Assembly (NCBI RefSeq): GCF_036711975.1
Contig: NC_091975.1
Coordinates: 2,172,501 to 2,236,500, forward strand
DNA: 64,000 nt
Source of the DNA: Onthophagus taurus
Lineage: Eukaryota; Arthropoda; Insecta; Coleoptera; Scarabaeidae
Direction of reading: 5' to 3'
How positions within the stretch are numbered: position 1 is the stretch's first letter; each line of letters starts with the position of its first letter. Under the pieces are notes generated by a model. That model worked only from the letters and a program-made list of their open reading frames with translations, was not told where the DNA came from and ran no database searches. Both the position numbers and the translations under genes were made by a program. Below, piece after piece: positions 1 to 36,712 of this stretch.

Positions 1-3000
1 TCAAGAACTAATTGAGATATATCGATGAAACAACGAGCATTTTACAGCAAATTTAATGAAGATTTAATGTGCCATAAAGAATTTCTTATTTCCCATAATC
101 AGGGTTGCTATGATTTTTTCAACCCAACTCTGCACATTTGGTTAATGTAGATTTTAAGAACAAAAATTTAAAATATCGTATCTCTAGAACTAATTGAGAT
201 ATATCGATGAAACAACGAGCATTTTAAAGCAAATTTAATGAAGATTTAATGTGCCATAAAGAATTTCTTATTTCCCATAATCAGGGTTGTTATGATCTTT
301 TCAACCCAACTCTGCACATTTGACTATTGCAGATTTTAAGAACAAAAATTTTAAAAATCGTATCTCAAGAACTAATTGAGATATATCGATGAAACAACGA
401 GCATTTTAAAGCAAATTTAATGAAGATTTAATGTGCCATAAAGAATTTCTTATTTCCCATAATCAGGGGTGTTATGATTTTTTCAACCCAAGTCTGCACA
501 TTTGGTTAATGTAGATTTTAAGAACAAAAATTTAAAATATCGTATCTCAAGAACTAATTGAGATATATCGATGAAACAACGAGCATTTTAAAGCAAATTT
601 AATGAAGATTTAATGTGCCATAAAGAATTTCTTATTTCCCATAATCAGGGTTGTTATGATTTTTTCAACCCAAGTCTGCACATTTGGTTAATGTAGATTT
701 TAAGAACAAAAATTTAAAATATCGTATCTCAAGAACTAATTGAGATATATCGATGAAACAACGAGCATTTTAAAGCAAATTTAATGAAGATTTAATGTGC
801 CATAAAGAATTTCTTATTTCCCATAATCAGGGTTGTTATGATCTTTTCAACCCAACTCTGCACATTTGACTATTGCAGATTTTAAGAACAAAAATTTTAA
901 AAATCGTATCTCAAGAACTAATTGAGATATATCGATGAAACAACGAGCATTTTAAAGCAAATTTAATGAAGATTTAATGTGCCATAAAGAATTTCTTATT
1001 TCCCATAATCAGGGTTGTTATGATCTTTTCAACCCAACTCTGCACATTTGACTATTGCAGATTTTAAGAACAAAAATTTTAAAAATCGTATCTCAAGAAC
1101 TAATTGAGATATATCGATGAAACAACGAGCATTTTAAAGCAAATTTAATGAAGATTTAATGTGCCATAAAGAATTTCTTATTTCCCATAACCAGGGTTGT
1201 TATGATTTTTTCAACCCAAGTCTGCACATTTGGTTAATGTAGATTTTAAGAACAAAAATTTAAAATATCGTATCTCAAGAACTAATTGAGATATATCGAT
1301 GAAACAACGAGCATTTTACAGCAAATTTAATGAAGATTTAATGTGCCATAAAGAATTTCTTATTTCCCATAATCAGGGTTGCTATGATTTTTTCAACCCA
1401 ACTCTGCACATTTGGTTAATGTAGATTTTAAGAACAAAAATTTAAAATATCGTATCTCTAGAACTAATTGAGATATATCGATGAAACAACGAGCATTTTA
1501 AAGCAAATTTAATGAAGATTTAATGTGCCATAAAGAATTTCTTATTTCCCATAATCAGGGTTGTTATGATCTTTTCAACCCAACTCTGCACATTTGACTA
1601 TTGCAGATTTTAAGAACAAAAATTTTAAAAATCGTATCTCAAGAACTAATTGAGATATATCGATGAAACAACGAGCATTTTAAAGCAAATTTAATGAAGA
1701 TTTAATGTGCCATAAAGAATTTCTTATTTCCCATAATCAGGGGTGTTATGATTTTTTCAACCCAAGTCTGCACATTTGGTTAATGTAGATTTTAAGAACA
1801 AAAATTTAAAATATCGTATCTCAAGAACTAATTGAGATATATCGATGAAACAACGAGCATTTTAAAGCAAATTTAATGAAGATTTAATGTGCCATAAAGA
1901 ATTTCTTATTTCCCATAATCAGGGTTGTTATGATTTTTTCAACCCAAGTCTGCACATTTGGTTAATGTAGATTTTAAGAACAAAAATTTAAAATATCGTA
2001 TCTCAAGAACTAATTGAGATATATCGATGAAACAACGAGCATTTTAAAGCAAATTTAATGAAGATTTAATGTGCCATAAAGAATTTCTTATTTCCCATAA
2101 TCAGGGTTGTTATGATCTTTTCAACCCAACTCTGCACATTTGACTATTGCAGATTTTAAGAACAAAAATTTTAAAAATCGTATCTCAAGAACTAATTGAG
2201 ATATATCGATGAAACAACGAGCATTTTAAAGCAAATTTAATGAAGATTTAATGTGCCATAAAGAATTTCTTATTTCCCATAATCAGGGTTGTTATGATCT
2301 TTTCAACCCAACTCTGCACATTTGACTATTGCAGATTTTAAGAACAAAAATTTTAAAAATCGTATCTCAAGAACTAATTGAGATATATCGATGAAACAAC
2401 GAGCATTTTAAAGCAAATTTAATGAAGATTTAATGTGCCATAAAGAATTTCTTATTTCCCATAACCAAGGTTGTTATGATTTTTTCAACCCAACTCTGCA
2501 CATTTGGCTGTTGTAGATTTTAAAATCAAAAATTTTAAAAATCGTATCTCAAGAACAAATTGAGATAAATTTATGAAACAAAGAGCATTTTAAAGCATAT
2601 TTAATGAAGATTGGGTGTGCCATAAAGAATTTCTTATTTTCCATAACCAGAGTTGCTATGATTTTTTTAACCCAAGTCTGCACATTTGGTTAATGTAGAT
2701 TTTAAGAACAAAAATTTAAAATATCGTATCTCAAGAACTAATTGAGATATATCGATGAAACAACGAGCATTTTAAAGCAAATTTAATGAAGATTTAATGT
2801 GCCATAAAGAATTTCTTATTTCCCATAATCAGGGTTGTTATGATTTTTTCAACCCAAGTCTGCACATTTGGTTAATGTAGATTTTAAGAACAAAAATTTA
2901 AAATATCGTATCTCAAGAACTAATTGAGATATATCGATGAAACAACGAGCATTTTAAAGCAAATTTAATGAAGATTTAATGTGCCATAAAGAATTTCTTA

Positions 3001-5030
3001 TTTCCCATAATCAGGGTTGTTATGATCTTTTCAACCCAACTCTGCACATTTGACTATTGCAGATTTTAAGAACAAAAATTTTAAAAATCGTATCTCAAGA
3101 ACTAATTGAGATATATCGATGAAACAACGAGCATTTTAAAGCAAATTTAATGAAGATTTAATGTGCCATAAAGAATTTCTTATTTCCCATAATCAGGGTT
3201 GTTATGATCTTTTCAACCCAACTCTGCACATTTGACTATTGCAGATTTTAAGAACAAAAATTTTAAAAATCGTATCTCAAGAACTAATTGAGATATATCG
3301 ATGAAACAACGAGCATTTTAAAGCAAATTTAATGAAGATTTAATGTGCCATAAAGAATTTCTTATTTCCCATAACCAAGGTTGTTATGATTTTTTCAACC
3401 CAACTCTGCACATTTGGCTGTTGTAGATTTTAAAATCAAAAATTTTAAAAATCGTATCTCAAGAACAAATTGAGATAAATTTATGAAACAAAGAGCATTT
3501 TAAAGCATATTTAATGAAGATTGGGTGTGCCATAAAGAATTTCTTATTTTCCATAACCAGAGTTGCTATGATTTTTTTAACCCAAGTCTGCACATTTGGT
3601 TAATGTAGATTTTAAGAACAAAAATTTAAAATATCGTATCTCAAGAACTAATTGAGATATATCGATGAAACAACGAGCATTTTAAAGCAAATTTAATGAA
3701 GATTTAATGTGCCATAAAGAATTTCTTATTTCCCATAACCAGGGTTGTTATGATTTTTTCAACCCAAGTCTGCACATTTGGCTGTTGTAGATTTTAAAAT
3801 CAAAAATTAAAAAAATCATATCTTAAGAACAAATTGAGATAAATTTATGAAACAAAGAGCATTTTAAAGCAAATTTAATGAAGACTTAATGTGCCATAAA
3901 GAATTTCTTATTTCCCATAATCAGGGTTGTTATGATCTTTTCAACCCAACTCTGCACATTTGACTATTGCAGATTTTAAGAACAAAAATTTTAAAAATCG
4001 TATCTCAAGAACAAATTGAGAGATATCGATGAAACAACGAGCATTTTAAAGCAAATTTAATGAAGATTTAATGTGCCATAAAGAATTTCTTATTTCCCAT
4101 AATCAGGGTTGTTATGATCTTTTCAACCCAACTCTGCACATTTGACTATTGCAGATTTTAAGAACAAAAATTTTAAAAATCGTATTTCAAGAACAAATTG
4201 AGAGATATTTATGAACCAAAGAGCATTTTAAAACAAATATAATGAAGATTTAATGTGCCATAAAGAATTTCTTATTTTCCATAACCAGGGTTGTTATGAT
4301 TTTTTCAACCCAAGTCTGCACATTTGGCTGTTGTAGATTTTAAAATCAAAAATTTAAAAAATCATATCTTAAGAACAAATTGAGATAAATTTATGAAACA
4401 AAGAGCATTTTAAAGCAAATTTAATGAAGACTTAATGTGCCATAAAGAATTTCTTATTTCCCATAATCAGGGTTGTTATGATCTTTTCAACCCAACTCTG
4501 CACATTTGACTATTGCAGATTTTAAGAACAAAAATTTTAAAAATCGTATCTCAAGAACAAATTGAGAGATATCGATGAAACAACGAGCATTTTAAAGCAA
4601 ATTTAATGAAGATTTAATGTGCCATAAAGAATTTCTTATTTCCCATAATCAGGGTTGTTATGATCTTTTCAACCCAACTCTGCACATTTGACTATTGCAG
4701 ATTTTAAGAACAAAAATTTTAAAAATCGTATTTCAAGAACAAATTGAGAGATATTTATGAACCAAAGAGCATTTTAAAACAAATATAATGAAGATTTAAT
4801 GTGCCATAAAGAATTTCTTATTTTCCATAACCAGGGTTGTTATGATTTTTTCAACCCAAGTCTGCACATTTGGCTGTTGTAGATTTTAAAATCAAAAATT
4901 TAAAAAATCATATCTTAAGAACAAATTGAGATAAATTTATGAAACAAAGAGCATTTTAAAGCAAATTTAATGAAGACTTAATGTGCCATAAAAATTTCTT
5001 ATTTTCCATAAACCGTGTTGTTTAAGACCA
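1..5030. repeat. Satellite family A, 182-bp monomer array
   Basis: About 27 head-to-tail copies of a 181-183 bp AT-rich monomer, recognisable by the recurring segment TCAAGAACTAATTGAGATAT at 1, 183, 364, 547 and so on. The array is already running at base 1, so the left end lies outside. Variants are not random: blocks of 7 monomers (1274 bp; position 1 matches 1275), 5 monomers (910 bp; the TTGGGTGTGC variant at 2611 and 3521) and 3 monomers (546 bp; the ATGAACCAAA variant at 4211 and 4757) are repeated nearly exactly, so these are higher-order repeats. The last monomer decays at about 4990-5030. No open reading frame of note. Diverged copies of the same unit sit at 36215-36712 and 58427-58690. 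Confidence 0.97.
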
Positions 5031-8000
5031 ATTTACCAAGGAAACTTCAAAATTTCTCGAATATCTCTAGATATTCGTAGGATTCTTTTAATGACCCAAT
5101 TTTTTATTTAAATATCTTCATCGAAAAAAATCTGGCTCACTAAATTCTTTTTCTTTTAATTCATCCCATTCTCGACGTGTTTCTTTGGTCTTCTTTCTTT
5201 GTTTGGACCCAGTTTATGTTACGTAACACGCATCCCGGAGTAGTTCTTATATAACGAGATGCCAGTAGCTTCAGGCCCAACCCACGTTTAGGCGCTGTTT
5301 GTAAACCAAAAACCAGTTAGTTCGTTGGATGCAGTAAACGAGATCTCCTCTCGATCGGAGATTAAAGAAAAACTCCTCGCAATGCCCGAGAGAAAAAAAA
5401 CCGCCAAAAAGAAAAAATGAAAAACCAGTTAGTGGTCGATGGTCAGGTTTTATTTGGGCCAATTTCTTTCTGGTTCAAAAATAACAGTTGATGGCATTAA
5501 AGACGAGAACCGAGAGTTTTGCGAAATGAGATTAATCGGGCCAAAGAAAAGTTCTCTTTTTCGCGTGTGTGGTAACTCTTATGTAATTTACGAATTAAAA
5601 AAGAAATATCGAAGAAGATGAAATTAAAACGTGTTATGGGGAAATTAAAATGTTAAGAAACATTTGTAAAAAAATAATTAGTTAGTTAGGTCAGGTTATG
5701 CTAATAATGCATTATCATATTCTTATTAATCGGTTTATGACACTATTAAATGCAATGAATATCAATAACGTGACTTGGTTTTATGAAAAATCCTACGTGA
5801 TTGTTATCACGATGTTTATTTCTAATTGAATCATAAACATTTTTGACCAAGAAAGCGTTTTAAGCAGACTCAAATTTTGCAGAAAATATATCAATAAAAA
5901 ATATAGATTAATGATTCTTGCCGAAATTTTTCCAATGTCCTCTTTGCCCTTGTGACCCAGCTAAAGTCAAACCGATTACGTAACCGCCAAGGACACTTCG
6001 AGGAGGAATCCAGCACGAGGAGGGCCCCTTTTCGCAGCAACAGCCCTCCTCTCTTCCTTTGACATTGGTCCGACTTTGTCCCCCCAAAAGAACTAGTATT
6101 ATGTAACGTGTAACTTTTTTTTAAAGTTATTTTTAAGTTGTTTGTTTGATTTTTTTGGGAAGGAAGAGATAGCAGGTGCTAAAAATCCCAAAAAGAGAAA
6201 CTAAATTTAAAACAGAATTAAAATAAATTTAAAAACTTAAAACGTTGGATCGAAAGAGTGAATGCAGCGCCTTCATGCGGTTGCTGAGCGCATAAACAAA
6301 ACGTCGCCATATGTTCGCTCTTTGCCAAAAATACAACCAAGGTCAAGGCTAACTGCCCAAAACAGCAACTCCGCGACTACGACTGTTTTGCAAAACAATC
6401 GAAATCGCATAACGTTGTTACTTAACTGTTTTTTATTTTTCTTTCGCCTCGTTTTATTTATTTAACGTTTCTCAAAAAAACTCGTTTCTTTTAGATTCCC
6501 TTAAACGACACTTTTTTGTTAAGGAGCTTACAACTGGCAATTATCCTACAAAAGATAACGTTATCCTTAGCTTCCAAAACCTCCCCCTCCTACCTTCTTA
6601 AACCCAAAGTTATTGGGAGCATTAAGAGAAGAGCTAACGCCGGTATTTATGGGAAAGTACATGTGCGCGACCCGCGAGATGGAGCTAATAAATACTGAGC
6701 GCGGGAAATACACAAAGCTTGGATCCGGCTCTGCTTCGGGGTGCGACATTTACATAGATAGGGATGCCAAAATCCAGGCAAAAAGGGTCCCGCGGAATAG
6801 AGTTCCACTTAAAGTTATGTTTATGGGGTGCCTAAGTGTGAATAGAGGAGACCCGAAGACAATGAGCGAATTGGGTAATTTTGTGTGCACTAGGAAATTG
6901 CGCCAAGGAATATCCCCGAAAGGTTTAATTGAATATAAATCATTATTTTATGGTTTTAGGGTATGTTATGTTAAAGTCTTCATTCCATTCATATTATAAA
7001 ATTAATGTATCCCTATATCTTTAGATATTCTTTGAAACAGGAAGATATTTAGCTTGCAAAATGGTTCTAATCAAAATGGGATTGTATCATTACATGGCTG
7101 AGATCAACCTGGTCTACGCAAGAATTGCTAATTACACCAACTGATTATGAAATGAGATGAGAAAATACTCTGTACTAAGATTTTATCCATCTCAGCCATA
7201 AATGTCATCACCAATAATCTGTAAACAATGATTTTTTAACGAAGGAAGCTTGCCGTAACAATTTGTTATATTCATCTTCTGCAGTATGATAACAATATGA
7301 TAATAGTATGGAACAGCTAATAATTGGTAGAAAACCGCGGTTTAACCAGTTGCCTGACTTTGAAAGAGGATGAATTTGGTATTGCAGAAATAGTTAGTCA
7401 GGTTCACCATTAGTCAGACCACTAACGAAGCCATCCACAATACGCTCGGTCCTACGCTGCTGCACTCTTCTATGCACTCTTACAAAGTACAAAGTGACCT
7501 ACTTTTAGTGTTTTTTTATCAAGTCTTATCTGCAGTTGGGCAACTTTTTACAATATCATCTCGCCGGAGCATTAGCGTTGCCTAAACACTCACCCAACGT
7601 TAAAAGCATACCAGTTTGTTCACTAAAATTGTAATTATTTGCCATTTTAAACAACTATTAGCCACTAACCTAATTATACCTAACTACATATATGGTGGGT
7701 AATAATTTGACAGTTGCATTTCCGTTTCAGTTAGTTCTGACTTTATGTTTAAACCTACCGATTTTTTACCATTGATTCTGCCAATATTCGGCCGGCATAG
7801 TTTGACAACGGTGAATACTATATTCATGTATTTTTTTATTTTAACCCCTATCAAAAGAAGTGTTTAAAAATTTAGGTCACGTGTATGACCCATATTTTTC
7901 AAGGATAACCTTGAAAGATCCTGGCAAACCAGTAGCCTCGCGACTCTCGCAACCCGTTCTTATTGAAACGCCTCTCCTCCAACAAAAAGAACTCCAAACG

Positions 8001-10255
8001 AAACCAAAAAAAAAAAAGAAAAAGAGAGAGAGAATGGGGGAACCAGGTGGGCTTGTTCCTCTCTTATTTTTATTTTGTTCTTTTTCTCTTTCCTTCTTTA
8101 TTTATTTTTTTTTCATTGCATCGTAAGCCCGCAACGTTTTCCTCTCGACTTCATTCACATTGCTCGGGACGAAAAAGGAAGGACTTCGGGAATTATTAGG
8201 GGTTCGTTTAAGGGTGTTTATAGGGGGATCGGTTTTGTACTACGTTTTGAAAATGTAGGTCAACCGGAACGGGGCCTCTAATAGACAAAACTGTAGGACA
8301 AAGGGTCGTAAATTTGATCGATGTTTCACTTGGCACCTTATAATTTAAGTTATTTTCTCGAAAACTTCCGCTCGGCTTGTATTAATTAAGATTAAGAAAA
8401 CAAGGTGAGAAGTAAATTTTAACTTTTCAAATTTTAACCTTGACAATTTAAATAAACAACAACAACAGTATTTAGAATACCCGACTATTATTTTAGAAAG
8501 AAAAACAAAATTTATTCATAATTTCGTTTAAATGAATTAATTTATTTTTTTTAATAAGTTTAGTACATCAGGCGGATTTAATTCAGTTGCTAAAACTGAA
8601 GAGAGTTTGAGTTGTGGGCAACGAAGCGTTCACTTTGCGTTTTCAAGGAAAGCAAACAATGTAGACCGATTAGTCACGGTTGTAGGGTTTTTCGTCACAG
8701 ACAAAACACGTCTTAAAATGGCCTCAACATTAAAATTTTCAATTGAAAAATTGGCTAAAAATCTTTTTATTTCTCCCCATCATTGGTATCGAGTTTTTAC
8801 CCTTAGGGGTGACCTTTTTAGTTCTTTATCCGACGTCACCTGCGGCATCGCAAGGATCGGATGGATTCTTTATGTTTCCCGGCTGGAGAATTCCGTTTCC
8901 GACACGTGCTGAAGTCTCGTGTAGAGGGGAAACCGCCGAGTTGAGAATTGGGAGACGCAAATAAACCCGGAGAACCAGAGGGGGAAGATGGGGACGTCGA
9001 AATCTGGCTACCTCCTCGGTTTCTTTGTTCCATGATCGCGTGACATCATCGCGTTCTCGTTTCTTTCTGTCCGTCAAAATTAACGACGCGAACTCAAAGA
9101 GCAAGAAGTAGTAGTAAAAATAATTTTCGCCAATGGAAAACGATTTCTAGTGCCCTACATGTTTTTAAGTTAATTCCCCCTTTAAATGTTTTAGTTCTTT
9201 TATGAGATCCCCCCAAAGGGTAATCCTTTTTAACTTTTTTGTAACTTGGGGGTTTTCTGTACAACCCCTTCGGGGGAGTTGAATTTAGGAAAATTGAATT
9301 AGATCGGTCGGCTATTAGCGTAATTGCAACGGACACAAAAATATTTCCGTCACCCTTTCTGTGATGATTTAATACCATGATATGTATTCTGTTTCATTAT
9401 TATGTAAGATTGTTACTGATCGCAGATATAAATTGAAACACATTACATCGTCGCAAGAGAGAGTTGTTTGTGTAGTCGTCGGGTTTGGTTAAATTTAAAT
9501 GAACTTAACCTTGCGATATACGAATTCCGAATCGAATGACCTATACGTGTCAGAGGGCTCATATTTTCGGATAACGTTTTCGCGCTGCCAAAAACGCCCA
9601 GTCCAACAGATTAAGGAATTTCCACGTTTATCTGAACGAGAAAAAAATGTATCAATCTTTAAATCGTTTCATTCTCCTAAAATTAATCCCAAAATTATTC
9701 AACTTTTAATATTAGACTTTCTACAAGGTTATTTTTTATTAAATTCTTTAAATATGTAAATTTATTAAGCAGGATATTTTTGTTACATTTATTTATTAGC
9801 ATCAAAAAAATTTATGTTTGCCGACATCACATTCCCGTTAAAATTAAATTAACTTAAATAATTTAAAAATCATGTTTTTATAAATTAAAATTTACACACA
9901 ATGTAAAATTTTCTTTATAACTTTACCCTCGCTACACGAACCCAAAAGATGACGTATGGGTAACAATCGCTCAAAAGAATGTTTACTTATTGCGCGCATG
10001 AATAGAATAATAAATGTATAGGGCGTATCGCTTTGTATAACTGACTCAATATCCCGGTATAAATCAAGCTTGGAATTGATACGATTTAAAGCAAAAAAAA
10101 TGTTCAGATATTTGTTTTGGTATTGATCCAAAAAGTTATCTACAATATATACAATACTTAGGATGCAATATACAAAAATATATTTCCATAGAAACCAGGG
10201 CGAGCTATTTACTTTGTTCCACATAAAATGCAACATGTCCATATAATTGACATTA
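5031..10255. other. Gene-poor stretch, nothing recognised
   Basis: Mixed AT-rich sequence with more complex GC-rich islands at about 5930-6080, 6240-6900, 8590-9100 and 9180-9380. Open frames here are short, overlap on both strands and lack splice-site support or a protein pattern I can place. The complex islands could be conserved regulatory DNA or exons of an unrecognised gene, but nothing in the sequence decides this. Confidence 0.5.
9892..10242 (-). CDS. Unrecognised 116-codon open frame, doubtful
   Basis: An ATG-started open frame of 116 codons on the minus strand. The N-terminal third holds a hydrophobic segment (about residues 17-37, containing WKYIFVYCILSIVYIVD) that could be a single membrane span. 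The rest is mildly charged with no motif I recognise. It ends 14 bp short of the pogo-like terminus at 10256, so it lies outside that element as oriented. No promoter or splice site was found that supports it. It may be a remnant of a host or element gene, or chance; no function is proposed. Confidence 0.2.
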   Translation of the reverse strand: MDMLHFMWNKVNSSPWFLWKYIFVYCILSIVYIVDNFLDQYQNKYLNIFFALNRINSKLDLYRDIESVIQSDTPYTFIILFMRAISKHSFERLLPIRHLLGSCSEGKVIKKILHCV

Positions 10256-18420: not shown

Positions 18421-21400
18421 TTAATCTTTATGAAAAATCCTTTAAAATGAATCCAAACACGACCTATTTTGCTAATAAACATTCTGAGATATCTTTATTA
18501 TTATATTTTTATAAAATCAAAGATGGCCGAAAACAAATGATTCGCAAATATTGTGATTAAGGATTACAAAACGCATGAAATGAGTCCAAACTCGACGTAT
18601 CTAAGTGTTATAACACCCAAGATTTCGTTGTTTTTATAAATTCAAGATGGCCGAAAACAAAACACTAATTAATTGTGTCAAAAATACTTTCAAAAGTCAA
18701 TTTTATGGTAAATATATTGTGTGATACATCAAATTAGGTTAAAATTATCTGGTCTTTACGAAAATCTTATTTTTGATGTAGTATTTAAAAATTTTAACAC
18801 ATTTTGAAGGTTTTTTAAGTTACATTATTAACCTTTATGAAAAATTCTTTAAAACGAATACAAACACAACCTATTTAGTTATTAAATTTTCCGAGATATC
18901 TTTATTTTTATATTTTTTATAAAATTCAAGATGGCCGAAAACAAAACACTAATTAATTGTGTCAAAAATACTTTCAAAAGTCAATTTTATTATAAATATA
19001 TTGTGTGATACATCAAATTAGGTTAAAATTATCTGGTCTTTACGAAAATCTTATTTTTGATGTAGTATTTAAAAATTTTAACACATTTTGGAGGTTTTTT
19101 AAGTTACATTATTAACCTTTATGAAAAATTCTTTAAAACGAATACAAACACAACCTATTTAGTTATTAAATTTTCCGAGATATCTTTATTTTTATATTTT
19201 TTATAAAATTCAAGATGGCCGAAAACAAAACACTAATTAATTGTGTCAAAAATACTTTCAAAAGTCAATTTTATTATAAATATATTGTGTGATACATCAA
19301 ATTAGGTTAAAATTATCTGGTCTTTACGAAAATCTTATTTTTGATGTAGTATTTAAAAATTTTAACACATTTTGGAGGTTTTTTAAGTTACATTATTAAA
19401 CTTTATGAAAAATTCTTTAAAACGAATACAAACACAACCTATTTAGTTATTAAATTTTCCGAGATATCTCTATTTTTATATTTTTTATAAAATTCAAGAT
19501 GGCCGAAAACAAAACACTAATTAATTGTGTCAAAAATACTTTCAAAAGTCAATTTTATGATAAATATATTGTGTGATACATCAAATTAGGTTAAAATTAC
19601 CTGGTCTTTACGAAAATCTTATTTTTGATGTAGTATTTAAAAATTTTAACACATTTTGGAGGTTTTTTAAGTCACATTATTAAACTTTATGAAAAATTCT
19701 TTAAAACGAATACAAACACAACCTATTTAGTTATTAAATTTTCCGAGATATCTTTATTTTTATATTTTTTATAAAATTCAAGATGGCCGAAAACAAAACA
19801 CTTTCAAAAGTCAATTTTATGATAAATATATTGTGTGATACATCAGATTAGGTTAAAATTATCTGGTCTTTACGAAAATCTTATTTTTGATGTAGTATTT
19901 AAAAATTTTAACACATTTTGGAGGTTTTTTAAGTTACATTATTAACCTTTATGAAAAATTCTTTAAAGCGAATACAAACACAACCTATTTAGTTATTAAA
20001 TTTTCCGAGATATCTTTATTTTTATATTTTTTATGAAATTCAAGATGGCCGAAAACAAAACACTAATTAATTGTGTCAAAAATACTTTTAAAAGTCAATT
20101 TTATGATAAATATATTGTGTGATACATCAAATTAGGTTAAAATTATCTGGTCTTTACGAAAATCTTATTTTTGATGTAGTATTTAAAAATTTTAACATAT
20201 TTTGGAGGTTTTTTAAGTTACATTATTAACCTTTATGAAAAATTCTTTAAAACGAATACAAACACAACCTATTTAGTTATTAAATTTTCCGAAATATCTT
20301 TATTTTTATATTTTTTACAAAATTCAATATGGCCGAAAACAAAACACTAATTAATTGTGTCAAAAATACTTTCAAAAGTCAATTTTATGATAAATATATT
20401 GTGTGATACATCAAATTAGGTTAAAATTATCTGGTCTTTACGAAAATCTTATTTTTGATGTAGTATTTAAAAGTTTTAACACATTTTGGAGGTTTTTTAA
20501 GTTACATTATTAACGTTTATGAAAAATTCTTTAAAACGAATACAAACACAACCTATTTAGTTATTAAATTTTCCGAGATATCTTTATTTTTATATTTTTT
20601 ATAAAATTCAAGATGGCCGAAAACAAAACACTAATTAATTGTGTCAAAAATACTTTCAAAAGTCAATTTTATTATAAATATATTGTGTGATACATCAAAT
20701 TAGGTTAAAATTATCTGGTCTTTACGAAAATCTTATTTTTGATGTAGTATTTAAAAATTTTAACACATTTTGGAGGTTTTTTAAGTTACATTATTAACCT
20801 TTATGAAAAATTCTTTAAAACGAATACAAACACAACCTATTTAGTTATTAAATTTTCCGAGATATCTTTATTTTTATATTTTTTATAAAATTCAATATGG
20901 CCGAAAACAAAACACTAATTAATTGTGTCAAAAATACTTTCAAAAGTCAATTTTATTATAAATATATTGTGTGATACATCAAATTAGGTTAAAATTATCT
21001 GGTCTTTACGAAAATCTTATTTTTGATGTAGTATTTAAAAATTTTAACACATTTTGGAGGTTTTTTAAGTTACATTATTAACCTTTATGAAAAATTCTTT
21101 AAAACGAATACAAACACAACCTATTTAGTTATTAAATTTTCCGAGATATCTCTATTTTTATATTTTTTATAAAATTCAAGATGGCCGAAAACAAAACACT
21201 AATTAATTGTGTCAAAAATACTTTTAAAAGTCAATTTTATTATAAATATATTGTGTGATACATCAAATTAGGTTAAAATTATCTAGTCTTTACGAAAATC
21301 TTATTTTTGATGTAGTATTTAAAAATTTTAACACATTTTGGAGTTTTTTTAAGTTACCTTATTAACGTTTATGAAAAATTCTTTAAAACGAATACAAACA

Positions 21401-24400
21401 CAACCTATTTAGTTATAAAATTTTCCGAGATATCTTTATTTTTATATTTTTTATAAAATTCAAGATGGCCGAAAACAAAACACTAATTAATTGTGTCAAA
21501 AATACTTTCAAAAGTCAATTTTATTATAAATATATTGTGTGATACATCAAATTAGGTTAAAATTATCTGGTCTTTACGAAAATCTTATTTTTGATGTAGT
21601 ATTTAAAAATTTTAACACATTTTGGAGGTTTTTTAAGTTACATTATTAACCTTTATGAAAAATTCTTTAAAACGAATACAAACACAACCTATTTAGTTAT
21701 TAAATTTTCCGAGATATCTTTATTTTTATATTTTTTATAAAATTCAATATGGCCGAAAACAAAACACTAATTAATTGTGTCAAAAATACTTTCAAAAGTC
21801 AATTTTATTATAAATATATTGTGTGATACATCAAATTAGGTTAAAATTATCTGGTCTTTACGAAAATCTTATTTTTGATGTAGTATTTAAAAATTTTAAC
21901 ACATTTTGGAGGTTTTTTAAGTTACATTATTAAACTTTATGAAAAATTCTTTAAAACGAATACAAACACAACCTATTTAGTTATTAAATTTTCCGAGATA
22001 TCTCTATTTTTATATTTTTTATAAAATTCAAGATGGCCGAAAACAAAACACTAATTAATTGTGTCAAAAATACTTTTAAAAGTGAATTTTATGATAAATA
22101 TATTGTGTGATACATCAAATTAGGTTAAAATTATCTGGTCTTTACGAAAATCTTATTTTTGATGTAGTATTTAAAAATTTTAACACATTTTGGAGGTTTT
22201 TTAAGTTACATTATTAACCTTTATGAAAAATTCTTTAAAACGAATACAAACACAACCTATTTAGTTATTAAATTTTCCGAGATATCTTTATTTTTATATT
22301 TTTTATAAAATTCAAGATGGCCGAAAACAAAACACTAATTAATTGTGTCAAAATACTTTCAAAAGTCAATTTTATGATAAATATATTGTGTGATACATCA
22401 AATTAGGTTAAAATTATCTGGTCTTTACGAAAATCTTATTTTTGATGTAGTATTTAAAAATTTTAACACATTTTGGAGGTTTTTTAAGTTACATTATTAA
22501 CCTTTATGAAAAATTCTTTAAAACGAATACAAACACAACCTATTTAGTTATTAAATTTTCCGAGATATCTTTATTTTTATATTTTTTATAAAATTCAAGA
22601 TGGCCGAAAACAAAACACTTTCAAAAGTCAATTTTATGATAAATATATTGTGTGATACATCAGATTAGGTTAAAATTATCTGGTCTTTACGAAAATCTTA
22701 TTTTTGATGTAGTATTTAAAAATTTTAACACATTTTGGAGGTTTTTTAAGTTACATTATTAACCTTTATGAAAAATTCTTTAAAACGAATACAAACACAA
22801 CCTATTTAGTTATTAAATTTTCCGAAATATCTTTATTTTTATATTTTTTATAAAATTCAATATGGCCGAAAACAAAACACTAATTAATTGTGTCAAAAAT
22901 ACTTTCAAAAGTCAATTTTATTATAAATATATTGTGTGATACATCAAATTAGGTTAAAATTATCTGGTCTTTACGAAAATCTTATTTTTGATGTAGTATT
23001 TAAAAATTTTAACACATTTTGGAGGTTTTTTAAGTTACATTATTAACCTTTATGAAAAATTCTTTAAAGCGAATACAAACACAACCTATTTAGTTATTAA
23101 ATTTTCCGAGATATCTTTATTTTTATATTTTTTATGAAATTCAAGATGGCCGAAAACAAAACACTAATTAATTGTGTCAAAAATACTTTTAAAAGTCAAT
23201 TTTATGATAAATATATTGTGTGATACATCAAATTAGGTTAAAATTATCTGGTCTTTACGAAAATCTTATTTTTGATGTAGTATTTAAAAATTTTAACACA
23301 TTTTGGAGGTTTTTTAAGTTACATTATTAACCTTTATGAAAAATTCTTTAAAACGAATACAAACACAACCTATTTAGTTATTAAATTTTCCGAGATATCT
23401 TTATTTTTATATTTTTTATAAAATTCAAGATGGCCGAAAACAAAACACTTTCAAAAGTCAATTTTATGATAAATATATTGTGTGATACATCAAATTAGGT
23501 TAAAATTATCTGGTCTTTACGAAAATCTTATTTTTGATGTAGTATTTAAAAATTTTAACACATTTTGGAGGTTTTTTAAGTTACATTATTAACCTTTATG
23601 AAAAATTCTTTAAAACGAATACAAACACAACCTATTTAGTTATTAAATTTTCCGAAATATCTTTATTTTTATATTTTTTATAAAATTCAATATGGCCGAA
23701 AACAAAACACTAATTAATTGTGTCAAAAATACTTTCAAAAGTCAATTTTATTATAAATATATTGTGTGATACATCAAATTAGGTTAAAATTATCTGGTCT
23801 TTACGAAAATCTTATTTTTGATGTAGTATTTAAAAATTTTAACACATTTTGGAGGTTTTTTAAGTTACATTATTAACCTTTATGAAAAATTCTTTAAAGC
23901 GAATACAAACACAACCTATTTAGTTATTAAATTTTCCGAGATATCTTTATTTTTATATTTTTTATGAAATTCAAGATGGCCGAAAACAAAACACTAATTA
24001 ATTGTGTCAAAAATACTTTTAAAAGTCAATTTTATGATAAATATATTGTGTGATACATCAAATTAGGTTAAAATTATCTGGTCTTTACGAAAATCTTATT
24101 TTTGATGTAGTATTTAAAAATTTTAACACATTTTGGAGGTTTTTTAAGTTACATTATTAACCTTTATGAAAAATTCTTTAAAGCGAATACAAACACAACC
24201 TATTTTGTTATTAAATTTTCCGAAATATCTTTATTTTTATATTTTTTATAAAATTCAATATGGCCGAAAACAAAACACTAATTAATTGTGTCAAAAATAC
24301 TTTCAAAAGTCAATTTTATGATAAATATATTGTGTGATACATCAAATTAGGGTAAAATTATCTGGTCTTTACGAAAATCTTATTTTTGATGTATTATTTA

Positions 24401-26360
24401 AAAATTTTAACACATTTTGGAGGTTTTTTAAGTTACATTATTAACCTTTATGAAAAATTCTTTAAAACGAATACTAACACAACCTATTTAGTTATTAAAT
24501 TTTCCGAGATATCTTTATTTTTATATTTTTTATAAAATTCAAGATGGCCGAAAACAAAACACTTTCAAAAGTCAATTTTATGATAAATATATTGTGTGAT
24601 ACATCAAATTAGGTTAAAATTATCTGGTCTTTACGAAAATCTTATTTTTGATGTAGTATTTAAAAATTTTAACACATTTTGGAGGTTTTTTAAGTTACAT
24701 TATTAACCTTTATGAAAAATTCTTTAAAACGAATACAAACACAACCTATTTAGTTATTAAATTTTCCGAAATATCTTTATTTTTATATTTTTTATAAAAT
24801 TCAATATGGCCGAAAACAAAACACTAATTAATTGTGTCAAAAATACTTTCAAAAGTCAATTTTATTATAAATATATTGTGTGATACATCAAATTAGGTTA
24901 AAATTATCTGGTCTTTACGAAAATCTTATTTTTGATGTAGTATTTAAAAATTTTAACACATTTTGGAGGTTTTTTAAGTTACATTATTAACCTTTATGAA
25001 AAATTCTTTAAAGCGAATACAAACACAACCTATTTAGTTATTAAATTTTCCGAGATATCTTTATTTTTATATTTTTTATGAAATTCAAGATGGCCGAAAA
25101 CAAAACACTAATTAATTGTGTCAAAAATACTTTTAAAAGTCAATTTTATGATAAATATATTGTGTGATACATCAAATTAGGTTAAAATTATCTGGTCTTT
25201 ACGAAAATCTTATTTTTGATGTAGTATTTAAAAATTTTAACACATTTTGGAGGTTTTTTAAGTTACATTATTAACCTTTATGAAAAATTCTTTAAAGCGA
25301 ATACAAACACAACCTATTTTGTTATTAAATTTTCCGAAATATCTTTATTTTTATATTTTTTATAAAATTCAATATGGCCGAAAACAAAACACTAATTAAT
25401 TGTGTCAAAAATACTTTCAAAAGTCAATTTTATGATAAATATATTGTGTGATACATCAAATTAGGGTAAAATTATCTGGTCTTTACGAAAATCTTATATT
25501 TGATGTATTATTTAAAAATTTTAACACATTTTGGAGGTTTTTTAAGTTACATTATTAACCTTTATGAAAAATTCTTTAAAACGAATACTAACACAACCTA
25601 TTTAGTTATTAAATTTTCCGAGATATCTTTATTTTTATATTTTTTATAAAATTCAAGATGGCCGAAAACAAAACACTAATTAATTGTGTCAAAAATACTT
25701 TTAAAAGTCAATTTTATGATAAATATATTGTGTGATACATCAAATTAGGTTAAAATTATCTGGTCTTTACGAAAATCTTATTTTTGATGTAGTATTTAAA
25801 AATTTTAACACATTTTGGAGGTTTTTTAAGTTACATTATTAACCTTTATGAAAAATTCTTTAAAACGAATACAAACACAACCTATTTAGTTATTAAATTT
25901 TCCGAGATATCTTTATTTTTATATTTTTTATAAAATTCAAGATGGCCGAAAACAAAACACTAATTAATTGTGTCAAAAACACTTTCAAAAGTCAATTTTA
26001 TGATAAATATATTGTGTGATACATCAAGTTAGGTTAAAATTATCTGGTCTTTACGAAAATCTTATTTTTGATGTAGTATTTAAAAATTTTAACACATTTT
26101 GGAGGTTTTTTAAGTTACATTATTAACCTTTATGAAAAATTCTTTAAAACGAATACAAACACAACCTATTTAGTTATTAAATTTTCCGAGATATCTTTAT
26201 TTTTATATTTTTTATAAAATTCAAGATGGCCGAAAACAAAACACTAATTAAGAGTGTCAAAAATACTTTTAAAAGTGAATTTTGTGGTAGATGTAGAGTG
26301 TGATACATGAAATCAGGTTAAAATTTTCTGATCTTTACGAAAATCTTATTCTTTATGAAA
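18421..26360. repeat. Satellite family B, 284-bp monomer array
   Basis: About 28 head-to-tail copies of a 284-bp monomer, marked by AAGATGGCCGAAAACAAAAC (at about 18645, 18929, 19213, 19497 and so on). A shorter 262-bp variant lacks about 22 bp after AAAACAAAACAC and recurs at 19799, 22616, 23446 and 24560. The spacings of 830 and 1114 bp equal one short plus two or three full monomers, which shows higher-order blocks. The first two monomers (18421-18700) and the last (26250-26360) are diverged, as expected at array edges. Each monomer carries ATGGCC in the context of the PHO/YY1 core. There is no coding content. Confidence 0.96.
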
Positions 26361-27769: not shown

Positions 27770-30449
27770 ATGTTGAAGTTGGGATATGTTTGGTTTTTAT
27801 TTTTGTGTGCAAGTGAATTGGAAATCGTACTGACTCAAAATGTGACTAATGAAGATGTTCACGAAAGTAAGTTTTAAACTAATTAAAAACGATTAGTAAT
27901 TATTTATTAAACGATTAGGATTCGTTACACCGTGTACCACTCCGAACGGCCGAACAGGATTATGCATTGAAATTCAAAAATGCAAAATTTTCATGAAAGT
28001 CATCGAAGAGCGCAAACAAGATTCATTTTCCTTCATAAAAGCATCCAAGTGTGGGCCATCAAATGAAGATCCATTGAAACCTAGGGTTTGTTGTGGAGAT
28101 GATATCCATTTTGTTAACCAAGGTATACAATTTTTTTTTCACTTTGTGGTTTCAATCATTTTCCTCATTTCAAAAAATTATTAATGGTCTATTCTGGTTA
28201 GTTAGGCGAAAAATGTTTTTATGTTTTATAGATACCGATAAAATAATAATCTATTCCACAGATAATTTTAATATATGCTTGAAAAGTCCGGATATGATTC
28301 GTTGAAAATTGTGTAAGTTGAAAAAGTGGTTTCGGGAAAATCCAATTAATGTTTCAAGATAATATTCTTGTTGACATAAATTTTTATTTCTTATATATTG
28401 AATAATTAATTATTTGGGTGATTCCAGCTTCATCGATATTGTGCAATCTATTATTGACTTGAAAATCTTTATTTGTTTTTGAGATAATAATTATTAAATT
28501 TGACCAATTTTTTATGATATCATAAAGTGAACAATCTTGTTTTGAAAAATCACGAAAAATCGAATTCTTAAGATATATTAATGAAACACTCATGATTTGT
28601 AAAGGAAAGTGCCTACTTTCGTATGATCAAAACCGAATTTGAAAATCTCTACTCGTTTTTGAGATAATAATTATTGAGCTCAACCTGATTTTTATGATTT
28701 CATAAAGTTAACAATCTTGTTTTAAAAAATCACGAAAAATCGAATTCTTAAGATATCTTAATGAAGTATTTATGATTTATAGAGGAAAATGTCTACTTTC
28801 TTATGATAAAAACAAAACTTGAAAATCTTTATTCGTTTGTGAGATACTCTGCGTATAACACAGATGTCACCATTTGTGACACTGTGTACCAGGCTGACAT
28901 GGATCGTTGTGCAGCAACCTTAGTTGACTCGGAAGACCAAATCCTAATGCAAGTGGGACAAGAATGGAGGTGGATCTTTATCGTCAAGCTGGTCGTGGGT
29001 CATGGGTCAAGCTTTCACCCGTGAAATAGAATGAACGTAAATATTTGGAAAAAAATCTTTACCAAGAATGAATTTAATCTACTTGTACTGCTTAGTCTAT
29101 TGACTTGCTAATTACTTCGTGGAAGAAAAAGATGCATGAAGCTCTTATAAAATTAGAAAAGTTGGCAAACCTCGTTGCCCTACAAGGTTTTTAGGGAATT
29201 ATGTTAAATTTAGGGAGATATTTATGCTATACTTTTTTTGACCTAACTAACCAAAATTGAACGAAAAAAATGAAAATGTTTCGATATTAATTTTGAAAAT
29301 TGTGCATTAAAAGTGTCTTTTACCACATACTTGATATAAAAAAAGTAAGTAGACATGAAAATATATTTCAAGGATATGGTATAAAGATACTGATTGACAT
29401 TTATAATTTTTAGATCATTTTTTCTTTGATTTTAGATGCAAACGCAGTACAATCAAACAGCCAGGAATACATCCCAGCTAAAGATATAACAACCCCATTA
29501 CCCCTTCACTTAAGAGATCCCCTCCCAACTATGTGCGGCACTCAGAGGGTGGTTATTAATAATAGGATTGTTGGTGGGCAAGAAGCTAGCATTGGGGAGT
29601 TTCCTTGGATGGCCAGAATCATTCATAGAAACTCTTATAATTACACCTCTTTGGGATGTTCCGCGTTTGTCATTCACCGAAAATTTGCTTTAACAGCGGC
29701 TCATTGTGTGAAGGGACTTGGTGTTCAAGCTCTTGGTGGAATGTAAGACTTATTTTCTTGTTACAAAATTAACAATTAATTGATTTAATTAATTATTTTA
29801 GTGTCGGAGTTATTTTAGGTTCTCATAACTCAACGCGCGAAGGAACTTGCGTTAAATCAGAACTCGAAGTGATATGTTCCCCAACTCCGAAATATATTGA
29901 ATCTTTAACACCGATAGTTCATTTAGATTATGAGCTTAAAGAACATACTAATGATATCGCTTTAATTCCTTTTAAAGAAAAAATAGTGTTTACTGATTTT
30001 ATCAAGGCAATTTGTTTGCCGAAGTTTGAATCAAACGTCCCTGATTTTACGATTTCTGGATGGGGGAAAACTGAGTCAGGTAAGATTTTATTAATTCTTT
30101 TTTGTTATAATTATTGTATTAATTACTAGATACTGGGAGTCCTGTTAAATTAAAAGTAACTCTTCCTCGAGTTGATCGGGGTTATTGTGATAAAAGATAT
30201 AGAACGATTGGGAGAAGTATTTTGGAGAATCAACTTTGTGCTGGCGGTGTTAGTGGACAAGATTCTTGTGCTGGGGATAGTGGGGGGCCTTTAATGGCTT
30301 TTAATGTGCAGGATCAAAAATGGTACGCTGAAGGAATTGTTAGTTATGGGTTAGGATGTGGAAGAGAAGAATGGCCGGGAGTTTACACCAACATCCCTAA
30401 ATATTATAATTGGATCGTTGACACCATCAGAAGGAATAAACCCGAATAA
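27770..30449 (+). CDS. CLIP-domain serine protease 1 (five exons)
   Basis: Secreted trypsin-like zymogen, 401 residues. Exons: 27770-27866, 27919-28122, 29436-29742, 29802-30079, 30130-30449, with intron phases 1, 1, 2, 1. Exon 1 encodes a signal peptide. Exon 2 is a complete CLIP domain with six cysteines (CTTPNGRTGLC, C-x5-C, KCG, VCC). A linker with CGT leads to the activation site NNR|IVGGQ, so a protease cutting after Arg would activate it. The triad is His in TAAHC, Asp in NDIALI and Ser in GDSGGP; the Asp six residues before the Ser (QDSCAGDSGGP) predicts cleavage after Lys/Arg. The family acts in haemolymph cascades (Toll activation, prophenoloxidase activation); the specific role is inferred. 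Intron 2 (1.3 kb) is unusually long and holds a 180-bp tandem repeat. AATAAA lies at about 30464. First of four tandem paralogues. Confidence 0.93.
28457..28848 (+). repeat. 180-bp tandem repeat in protease 1 intron
   Basis: Two full units and a partial third, with CTTGAAAATCTTTATT-type starts at 28461, 28641 and 28821 (exactly 180 bp apart). Each unit contains ACAATCTTGTTTT and AAAAATCGAATTCTTAAGATA. The unit length and the AAAATCG...AAGATAT theme recall satellite A, but similarity is too weak to claim homology by eye. Confidence 0.8.
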
Positions 30450-30972: not shown

Positions 30973-32219
30973 ATGGTGCCACTTTTCGTTTCATTTCTTT
31001 TCATTCTTTGTATCTCCATAATTGGGGCACGTAAGTTTTAGATCTAAAAACCTTTCAACTTTCAACTGATAACCTAATTTAATAAAATTTGTTTTCTTCT
31101 AGAACAAAGATGTACAACTCCAAATGGAGAAGTAGCACGTTGTGTACCAATACATAGTTGTTCCATTTTTTTGAAAGCTTTAGACTCTGCCGATGCTACA
31201 AGTCGAGCTTTTTTAAAGGCTTCAGTTTGTCCGGGAATATCGCCTTTAGCGGTATGTTGTGGGAGTTATACAACTTATCAAAGTTTAGACGATTCATCTT
31301 CTCTTCCTGATAGAAATTCATGTGGGATTCAGGTAAATTAAATAATCTTTTTTAAATCATCATCACAATACAGTTTTTAGGAAGACACAGATAAAGTTTT
31401 TGGTGGGACAAACGCAGGCATCGTTGAATACCCATGGTTAGCAACACTCCAATACAAAAATCAATTAGGACATTTATCGTTTAAATGTGGAGGAGCCCTC
31501 ATCAGCAATAAATATGTATTAACAGCAGCTCATTGTGTTACAAACCCAAAACTTACTCTGTATGTCAATCTAATTTCACCTCAATTAATTATTAAAATAA
31601 TAACATTTTTAGTCACCGTGTAAGATTAGGAGAATGGAATTTAGACTCGCCAGAAGACTGTTTTGGCACCGCACCTTTTAAACAATGCATTTCAAAACCA
31701 ATAGACGCCGAAGTTGAAGATATCATAACACACGAGAAATACTCTAAATCCACGGGAGGTGTTTTCTTCGATATTGCATTATTAAGACTTAAAACTCCAG
31801 TTTCTTACTCGATATCAATCAGACCCATTTGTCTCCCAAAACCGGATGAAAAAAGTTCTGCTGGGGAATTAGTTTACGTCGCCGGATGGGGTAACACTGA
31901 ATATTCAAGTTATTCGCCTATTAAACAAAAACTTGGACTTCCAATTATGGATCCAAATAAATGCCAAGATTTGTTTGGGCGAAGTGGGGTTACGGTTAAT
32001 AATGACCACATTTGCGCGGGGGGTGAAAACTTGAAAGATTCTTGTAAAGGTGATAGTGGTGGGCCGTTAATGGCAAGGATTCGAGAAAACCCGAATCAAT
32101 TTTATTTAGAAGGAATCGTTTCTTATGGTGTGAGAATGTGTGGATCTCCAGGGATACCAGGAATTTACACAAGAGTTAATAAATACTTGGAGTGGATCAA
32201 TTCCAAAATAACTCCCTAA
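30973..32219 (+). CDS. CLIP-domain serine protease 2 (four exons)
   Basis: Secreted trypsin-like zymogen, 357 residues. Exons: 30973-31030, 31103-31332, 31381-31559, 31613-32219; intron phases 1, 0, 2. The signal peptide is in exon 1. The CLIP domain in exon 2 has six cysteines (CTTPNGEVARC, C-x5-C, SVCPG, VCC). An intron cuts at CGIQ|EDTDK, just before the activation site DK|VFGG, which predicts activation after Lys. The triad is His in TAAHC, Asp in FDIALL and Ser in KDSCKGDSGGP, with the trypsin-type specificity Asp present. It lacks the intron that splits WGKTE in proteases 1 and 4 (here WGNTE is uninterrupted). Most like protease 3 in layout; probable role in a haemolymph cascade. Confidence 0.93.
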
Positions 32220-32499: not shown

Positions 32500-33790
32500 A
32501 ATTGCGATTTTCTTCTCTCAAGAATCAAAAAGCTAGAAACTTGCAATTTTTACCAAGTTAAAGAAGAATCCTTCCTTTATAACCTCAAAAAGTTTCGCTT
32601 TTCCAATTCAATTAATTAACAAGAAATTAATTTGTTTGTAAACCATGATATTACAAATTTTTATTATTTCAATTTTAGGTTAGGTTAAGTTCACTTAAAG
32701 TTTTCTCAAGAATCAAAAATGTTAGAAACTTGCAATTTTCACCAAATTAAAGAAGAATCCTTTCTTTATAACCCCAAAAAGTTTCGCTTTTCCAATCCAA
32801 TTATTTAATGAGAAATTAATTTTTATATAAACCATAAAATTACAAATTTTTGATTATTTCAATTTCAGTTTAGATTAAGTTCACTTAAAGTTTTTTCAAG
32901 AATCAAAAATGCTAGAAACTTGCAATATTCACCAAATTAAAGAAGAATCCTTTCTTTATAACCCCAAAAAGTTTCGCTTTTCCAATCCAATAATTTAATG
33001 AGAAATTAATTTTTATATAAACCATAAAATTACAAATTTTTGATTATTTCAATTTCAGTTTAGATTAAGTTCAGTTAAAGTTTTCTCAAGAATCAAAAAT
33101 GTTACAAACTTGTAATTTTCACCAAATTAAAGAAGAATTCTTCCTTTATAACCTCAATTAATTAACAAGAAATTAATTTGTTTGTAAACTATGATATTAC
33201 AAATTTTTATTATTTCAATTTCAGTTAAGGTTAAGTTCAGTTAAAGTTTTCTCAAGAATCAAAAATGTTAGAAACTTGCAATTTTCACCAAATTAAAGAA
33301 GAATCCTTTCTTTATAACCCCAAAAAGTTTCGCTTTTCCAATCCAATCATTTAATGAGAAATTAATTTTTATGTAAACCATAAAATTCCAAATTTTTGAT
33401 TATTTCAATTTCAATTTAGTTAAGTTCACTTAAAGTTTTTTCAAGAATCAAAAATGTTAGAAACTTGCAATTTTCACCAAATTAAAGAAGAATCCTTTCT
33501 TTATAACCCCAAAAAGTTTCGCTTTTCCAATCCAATTATTTAATGAGAAATTAATTTTTATATAAACCATAAAATTACAAATTTTTGATTATTTCAATTT
33601 CAGTTTAGTTAAGTTCACTGAAAGTTTTTTCAAGAATCAAAAATGCTAGAAACTTGCAATTTTCACCAAATTAAAGAAGAATCCTTCCTTTATAACCTCA
33701 AAAAGTTTTGTTTTTCCAACCCAATTAATTTCCAAGAAAATATTTTTTTTGTTAATCGCAAATTTAGAAATCTTAGTAAAAAATTAAAAT
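32500..33790 (+). repeat. 189-bp tandem repeat between proteases 2 and 3
   Basis: Seven units marked by TCAAGAATCAAAAATG.TAGAAACTTGCAATTTTCACC at 32518, 32706, 32896, 33086, 33252, 33441 and 33630. Spacing is 188-190 bp, except one 166-bp unit with an internal deletion. The sequence has no coding content. It lies between the 3' end of protease 2 and the promoter of protease 3. Confidence 0.92.
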
Positions 33791-34283: not shown

Positions 34284-35604
34284 ATGAAGGTTTCGACAAC
34301 CATCGTGTTTTTCGCCTTGTTATTGGTTCTTGGAATAACGAATATAACAGCTCGTAAGTATTAATTAAAAAAAAAGATAATGTTATCTTGTCACTGTTGA
34401 ACTTTGAAAACCGGTTCATTAAAATCGATGACCTTCAGAGCTTGGTTGTTGTTTTTGTTTTCGTTTTCTTTCTTTCTGGTTATGTTTTGGGTTTTATTTT
34501 TTTTTTAGAATCTGGTTCTGCCTGCATTACCCCTAACAAAGAAAACGCAAGATGCATCTCAATTTATTCATGTCCAGTTTTATATGATGCAGTATCAACT
34601 ACAGATCCTCAAATTATTCAATTTTTAAAGCAATCACAATGCGGGTTTTCTAGCACTCCTTTGGTGTGTTGTGGAAAACAGGCTAATTATGTTACCAGAA
34701 CATCTTTTAGTGATAATGGTGGTGCCGCAGCTGGAAACTTATTACCTCCAGAAGATCAATGTGGGGTACAAATAAATGATAAAGTTTTAAATGGTGAAAC
34801 AGCAGGTCTTCGTGAATTCCCATGGATGGCTTTATTAAGATATAGAAACGCATCTGGTTTTGAAAGTAATTCTTGTGGAGGAACCTTAATCAGCGATAGA
34901 TATGTTATAACAGCCGCTCATTGTTTAATTGGCGCCATAAGAACTTTTATTGGAGATTTGTAAGTTTAATTATTTGATTAAGTTTCGAATTAATATTTTT
35001 TTTTAGGATTTCAGTGCGTTTAGGAGAATTTAATACGCAAACTGCAAAAGATTGCGTTTTAACTCAAGGTTTTAATCTTTGTGCTGATGATCCCGTAAAT
35101 GTGGGCGTTTCAGGGACCATCCCCCATCCTCAATACGATGATACCTCAAGAGATAGACTGTTCGATATTGGGTTAGTTCGATTACAAAGAAGTGTAACTT
35201 ATTCAGATTATATCAGACCGATTTGTCTTCCATCGCCGAATGAAAGAGCAACCGTTGGAAATTTCCTAACGGTCGTGGGATGGGGAAGAACCGAAACTGG
35301 AAGATACAGCCCCACCAAACAAAAATTATTAGTACCAGTTGTTGAACCAAATCGATGTGCGGCCACGTTTAGAACACAAAGAGTGACATTGAGAGATTCC
35401 CAATTATGTGCTGGAGGTGAAAAGGATAAAGATTCTTGTAAAGGAGATAGTGGAGGTCCTTTACTTAATTTAAGAAATAATGGGCAATATTTTATTGAGG
35501 GGGTTGTTTCATTTGGTGCTACTTGTGGTACTGAAGGTTGGCCGGGAATTTATACACGAGTTTCGTCTTATTTGAGTTGGATCAAACAGAATTTGAAACC
35601 ATAA
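34284..35604 (+). CDS. CLIP-domain serine protease 3 (three exons)
   Basis: Secreted trypsin-like zymogen, 372 residues. Exons: 34284-34353, 34509-34959, 35007-35604; intron phases 1 and 2. The signal peptide is in exon 1. The CLIP domain has six cysteines (CITPNKENARC, C-x5-C, SQCG, VCC), followed by a Gly/Ala-rich linker. The activation site is NDK|VLNGETAG, cut after Lys. The triad is His in TAAHC, Asp in FDIGLVRL (where ALI/ALL is usual) and Ser in KDSCKGDSGGP. The organisation resembles easter/SPE-type CLIPB proteases that activate Spaetzle or prophenoloxidase; this is family-level inference only. It has the fewest introns of the cluster. Poly(A) signal AATAAA at about 35655. Confidence 0.93.
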
Positions 35605-35639: not shown

Positions 35640-36214
35640 AAATTTTTGTAATCAATAAATTATTTTTTATAAAAATTGCGTTTGGTTGAATTAAAAAAAT
35701 TAAAAAAATCGTATCGGAGTTATAGAAACGAAGAAATAATATTTAGTGTGTTAAACTAGATTAAATTTACTATAAAATGATTTTTAAATCATCTCGATAT
35801 CTTAATTACTTTCCGAGATATGATTATTTAAATATTGGTATTTATAAAATGTGAACTTTATGAAATTGATATCTCATAAACTAATTATAACTCAAAAAGT
35901 AAAAGTGATTTAAAAAAACGAGTTTAACCACCAAAAAGGTGAATATTTTCTTTATAAAATTCCCTAATTACAAAATAATTGAGATAAAAATCGATTTTTA
36001 ACGATTTTTGCTCAAAGCTTTGTGATAATTATGAATTATTGCGATTAAAAATTTTTATCTTTAAATGTAAACGAGATTGTCAAAATCGGATTTCACCACG
36101 ATAAAATAGATAATTATCTTCTTATATACTGAAAATATCAAAACAATATTCCAAAAAATGGATTTTTCGCGAAGTTATAAATGCCAGGAAAAAAAATGTT
36201 TCAATAAATTTTTT
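35640..36214. other. AT-rich spacer between proteases 3 and 4
   Basis: Low-complexity sequence with repeated words of the AGATATGA and AAAATCG type, as in many spacers of this window. No gene, no clear repeat unit. Confidence 0.4.
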
Positions 36215-36712
36215 TTAAACGATCATATCTCAAGAACGAATTGACATATCATTATGAAATAAAGAGCGTTTTAAAGCAAATTTAATGTAGATTTAATATA
36301 CCAAAAATAATTTCTTAGTTTCCATAAACTTGGATGTTATGATTTTTTTAAACCTACATCTACACATATGATTTAAATTTTGGGTATAAAACTTAAAAAA
36401 AATCATATCTCAAGAACGAATTGTGATATCATGATGAAATAATAAACATTTGAAAGCAAATTTGTTAAGGATTTAGTCTGCTAGAAATAATTTCTTACTT
36501 TTCATGAATTTGGATGTTATGATTTTTTTAAACCTACATCTACACATTTGATTTAGATTTTTAGTATAAAACTTAAAAAAAATCATATCTCAAGAACGAA
36601 TTGTAATATCATAATGATATAACAAACATTTTAAAGCAAATTTATTACCGATTTAGTGTGCTAGAAATAATTTCTTATTTACCATAAACTTGGATGTTAT
36701 GATTTTTTATAG
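36215..36712 (+). repeat. Diverged satellite A monomers, 180-bp spacing
   Basis: Almost three copies related to the satellite at the left end. They share ATCATATCTCAAGAACGAA (ending at 36240, 36420 and 36600, exactly 180 bp apart), AGCAAATTTA, AATAATTTCTTA and GGATGTTATGATTTTTT in the same order as family A. The copies differ from the array by much more than array copies differ from each other. The tract ends in a run of nine C at 36713. Confidence 0.85.

Follow-up and report, generated by a model that had tools for sequence, protein, structure and literature searches.

Three exact tandem duplications in a short 182-bp satellite array of the beetle Onthophagus taurus

Previous studies indicate that satellite DNA can grow by unequal exchange, and in the model of Smith (1976), as it is outlined in a passage of PMC8997354, such an exchange duplicates sets of monomers. 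In beetles, higher-order repeats (HORs) are mentioned in passages on the TCAST satellite of Tribolium castaneum (PMC7598501, citing Vlahovic et al. 2017), the dimers of TCsat38 (PMC10218199), the dimers and trimers of Chrysolina carnifex (PMC8122249) and Tribolium madens (PMC13081366), and the grasshopper Pyrgomorpha conica also has HORs according to the title of a paper in reference lists. With Tribolium, Chrysolina and a grasshopper thus in print, at least in these extracts and titles, the premise of the original prediction that HORs are scarce in insects is not supported.

Here we describe a 182-bp satellite array at one edge of a 64,000-nucleotide stretch of the Onthophagus taurus genome (the window, C10:2172501-2236500 in the assembly). 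The array shares with the Smith model, in the outline cited, the joint duplication of distinct monomers by out-of-register exchange, and nothing essential differs; it is short (31 monomers), and a centromeric role is only hypothetical. With TCAST, TCsat38 and the Chrysolina carnifex repeats, it shares units of several monomers within an insect satellite. However, those HORs are described in the passages concerned as repeated units, whereas the 182-bp array has about two copies per block and three block lengths in one array. Satellite arrays are also described in beetle euchromatin in parts of PMC11049206 and PMC5844308, and the present family would likewise be dispersed outside heterochromatin.

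Extent and setting of the array

Tandem Repeats Finder (TRF) reports the window part of the satellite as one array of 182-bp monomers with 94% matches (Table 1). The array is cut by the window and extends in the assembly to ~-670, that is, ~670 bp left of the window; the whole array, from ~-670 to 5022 (2830-8522 of locus L011, C10:2171830-2177522), comprises 5693 bp and 31.3 monomers. Both ends are diverged partial monomers. The 500-bp flanks on the left and right match only themselves in the genome, in a search that skips very common words, and a mobile element carrying the array was rejected on this ground.

A headcase-type open frame with a Headcase N-terminal domain (PF15353, E 2.9e-49) lies on the minus strand ~2.4 kb left of the array, and on the right side two open frames, 31596-32216 and 34978-35601, match trypsin (PF00089). 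With the Headcase frame on its left and the trypsin frames on its right, the 182-bp array is a short array in gene-bearing DNA, and its length of 5.7 kb together with the closeness of the headcase-type frame to its left end argues against a centromeric satellite.

The segment 27900-35601 apparently holds tandem trypsin-like serine protease genes, with three frame sets recognized by eye and two frames matched by the profile; further protease-like frames, seen by eye only, start from ~28 kb, and small satellite arrays (28457-28846 and 32516-33727) are located between the trypsin-like genes. Two long open frames that look malate dehydrogenase-like by eye, at 50769-51794 on the plus strand and 54186-55232 on the minus strand, are in opposite orientation, each uninterrupted across ~1 kb.

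Table 1. Features of the 182-bp satellite array in window coordinates
Feature	Position	Strand	Basis or remark
182-bp satellite array, window part, ~27.6 monomers	1..5022	.	TRF
7-monomer block, 2.0 copies, exact	1..2467	.	lag 1274; first copy starts 83 bp before base 1 of the window
5-monomer block, ~2.2 copies, exact	1759..3738	.	lag 910
3-monomer block, ~2.2 copies, exact	3810..4992	.	lag 546
Last monomer at right edge, truncated and diverged	4915..5022	.	monomer comparison

Three duplicated blocks

We scanned the array for exact matches of at least 60 bp at lags 20-5599. The 7-monomer block corresponds to an exact match of 1276 bp (-82..1193 vs 1192..2467), the 5-monomer block to one of 1070 bp (1759..2828 vs 2669..3738) and the 3-monomer block to one of 637 bp (3810..4446 vs 4356..4992). 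At lags that are not a multiple of 182, the scan found no exact match of this minimum length. These tracts confirm the original prediction that variant monomers recur at 1274, 910 and 546 bp (7, 5 and 3 units), and the switch points that it placed at about 2463 and 3738 deviate by no more than 4 bp from the ends of the tracts. The repeats had also been called nested, which does not fit their arrangement: the second copy of the 7-block and the 5-block overlap at 1759-2467, the shared 709 bp recurring at lag 2184 (485..1193 vs 2669..3377), and the 3-block is separate.

Comparison of the monomers reveals the same structure beyond single monomers that had been predicted, as monomers 1-6 equal 8-13, 11-15 equal 16-20, and 22-24 equal 25-27, with 0 differences each. 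In contrast, monomers inside a block differ from each other at up to 10 of 182 sites in the 7-block (monomers 1-7), 22 in the 5-block (monomers 11-15) and 18 in the 3-block (monomers 22-24), although some are identical (5 and 6, 12 and 13). The block copies are therefore far more alike than their monomers, as in a HOR, but a HOR also has many tandem copies of its unit, and here the copies per block number 2.0 to 2.2. The three unit lengths within one 5.7-kb array leave no single dominant HOR length. With about two copies each, the blocks are single tandem duplications rather than multi-copy HORs; what stands of the HORs predicted earlier is the exactness of block copies that are alike beyond their monomers, and the classic sense of the term does not apply.

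As a null, the order of 30 whole monomers was shuffled 2000 times. The longest exact match reached at least 1276 bp in 0/2000 shuffles, at least 1070 bp in 1/2000 and at least 637 bp in 102/2000; one or more complete exact blocks arose in 377/2000, with at least two lags represented in 1/2000 and three in 0/2000. A single block, or the length of the 3-block alone, is thus not rare under this null, but the 7-block, the 5-block and the set of three are.

Exact block copies could come from assembly or polishing error. None of the three block pairs shows a single difference, which suits the possibility that the blocks are artefacts of false expansion, collapse or over-polishing, but we regard such artefacts as unlikely: the window contains no N, the genome of 290.8 Mb is assembled in 33 contigs, and an erroneous duplication would hardly be expected to keep the monomer register and to form a hybrid monomer at its junction. 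An array of 5.7 kb is also shorter than typical modern long reads.

Growth of the array and its readable history

The array is very probably a short, locally homogenised one in gene-bearing DNA that grew by three recent homology-directed tandem duplications, most simply by unequal exchange. A precursor of 16.1 monomers would have gained 15 monomers (2730 bp) through such duplications of 7, 5 and 3 monomers, and the exchanges would most simply have taken place between misaligned sister chromatids or homologues. The junctions of the 5-block and the 3-block lie in matching runs of 160 and 91 bp, respectively. The matching run at the 7-block junction measures 2 bp; beyond a single mismatch (at -83), exact matching continues at lag 1274 for another 288 bp. 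Monomer 7 is a hybrid, as expected of a crossover product: its left variant is that of monomer 14 and its right variants are those of monomer 0. The in-register lags, the junctions in matching runs and the hybrid monomer 7 fit homologous exchange between misaligned monomers. Since the 7-block junction lies between two mismatches 3 bp apart, either a crossover right there or a small conversion would be needed. From the successive unequal exchanges that had been proposed, the in-register duplication between misaligned monomers is retained, all lags being multiples of 182, and the successive series of events is not.

Nothing in the evidence separates unequal crossing-over from slippage, break-induced replication and long-tract conversion; we infer exchange to be the origin of the blocks, in preference to replication slippage, break-induced replication or gene conversion. 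Reinsertion of rolling-circle copies from extrachromosomal circles, or break-induced replication, in place of unequal crossing-over, is a rather unlikely origin. Both routes are published for satellite growth, as stated in passages of PMC8122249 and PMC8997354, but reinserted circles would usually produce blocks in more than two copies, and about two are present here.

For one query monomer, the matches within the 182-bp array are 90-100% identical and those elsewhere at most 87%, among the matches listed, which points to local homogenisation. We built a core consensus from monomers 1-20 (flanking DNA is part of the end rows, -3 and 28). Differences from this consensus number 17 in monomer -2, 8-16 in monomers 22-27 and 3-8 in monomers -1 to 14, 16-19 and 21; two inner monomers, 15 and 20, have 17 as well. 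The increase in divergence that would be expected toward the edges is therefore only partly present. In human arrays, disordered monomers are located at the edges, according to a part of PMC8997354. The 182-bp array probably has no function of its own.

Removal of the second copies was possible in all six orders (6/6) and yielded the same 2933-bp (16.1-monomer) array each time; 15 monomers, about half of the ~31, stem from the three duplications. There are zero differences across the 1274 + 910 + 546 = 2730 bp of duplicated units, which sets a 95% upper bound of ~0.11% (3/2730) on the divergence of the block copies, and the three duplications hence look recent. The array had been read as a history of successive growth. 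Block overlaps were rejected as a guide to the order of events because every order of undoing leads to the same ancestor, and divergence was rejected because the copies do not differ; the order of the three duplications cannot be read from a single assembly sequence.

The same reading had the exchange register shrinking toward the array edge. Of the two edges of the array, 5.7 kb apart, the left one is ~590 bp from the start of the 7-block and the right one 30 bp from the end of the 3-block; a gradient from a deep interior to an edge was rejected, since the assembly contains the entire 5.7-kb array. We also simulated random histories in which three duplications of different sizes (2 to 8 monomers) enlarged an array of 16 monomers to 31 and all remained visible; the sizes were monotonic along the array, in either direction, in 621 of 1777. 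A directional process, in which the register shrinks as the available partner sequence drops, would account for the sizes 7, 5 and 3 from left to right, but it is hardly credible for three events whose order is not recoverable, given how often random histories are monotonic and how close the 7-block is to the left edge. The sizes in a second, 284-bp array of the window moreover run the opposite way, although the tracts there are less than one full unit.

Other arrays in the window and the genome

The 284-bp satellite array, unrelated to the 182-bp one, occupies 18681-26245 with 27 copies and 95% matches. It has recent blocks of its own: the longest exact tracts start at 20566 (lag 852, 516 bp), 22664 (lag 830, 689 bp) and 23362 (lag 1114, 1022 bp), the first two with a lag of 3 units and the last with one of 4. 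As some units measure 262 bp, lags 830 and 1114 are no integer multiples of 284. These tracts cover 0.61 to 0.92 of one unit and are less clean than the 182-bp blocks. In a 189-bp array of the window, no exact tracts of at least 200 bp were found at lags above 300. Short diverged relatives (73-80%) of the 182-bp satellite are located at 36214-36708 and 58447-58680 in the window. A 25-bp pattern of the TCAGG telomere repeat gave 0 matches.

The satellite family has at least 348 matches in the genome, which lie, among the matches listed, on contigs C1, C2, C3, C5, C6, C7, C10 and C11. It behaves as a dispersed short-array family, with many loci on several chromosomes and an array that is not inside a repeated mobile element. 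For comparison we took 17 other family loci (L012-L028) from among the matches listed, a sample that is not random, and defined an ungapped tandem block by a lag of 300-2599, a length of at least 0.8 of the lag and an identity of at least 97%. Such blocks occur in 8/17 loci and are absent from the other 9/17. In 6/17 (L015, L020, L021, L022, L026 and L027), at least one is inside a mapped family array, and in L023 and L028 they are in other tandem repeats. With the length threshold set at 0.7 of the lag, exact blocks number one in L020 (outside the family array), two in L026 and two in the 284-bp array. Among the 18 loci, an exact block of more than three monomers occurs only in the 182-bp array of the window, the clearest array examined. 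In L026, the family array region 2721-7913 contains several 2- and 3-monomer blocks with an identity of at least 99%, and this region is a second candidate for the study of recent growth.

When 52 array flanks of loci L011-L028 (18 loci) were compared, 31 match rows resulted: 21 lie within a single locus, some of them from neighbouring arrays whose flanks overlap, and 10, of 25 to 90 bp, connect different loci; the flanks of the 182-bp array appear in none of these rows.

It is very doubtful that short euchromatic arrays in this genome grow in general by rare jumps of 3-7 monomers instead of single-monomer steps, so that a handful of very recent events could double an array, and that the distance to the edge sets a limit on block size. 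The blocks of the 182-bp array are most simply explained by ordinary unequal exchange; similar blocks occur in other arrays, and insect HORs are mentioned in the literature extracts cited above. The 182-bp array leaves existing knowledge of satellites or insects unchanged. It nearly doubled in length by three duplications, a usual growth route for such arrays, and can serve for teaching or as a locus for copy-number typing: a clean small case of satellite growth, in which three exact duplications make up 15 of ~31 monomers and can be reduced to one precursor.
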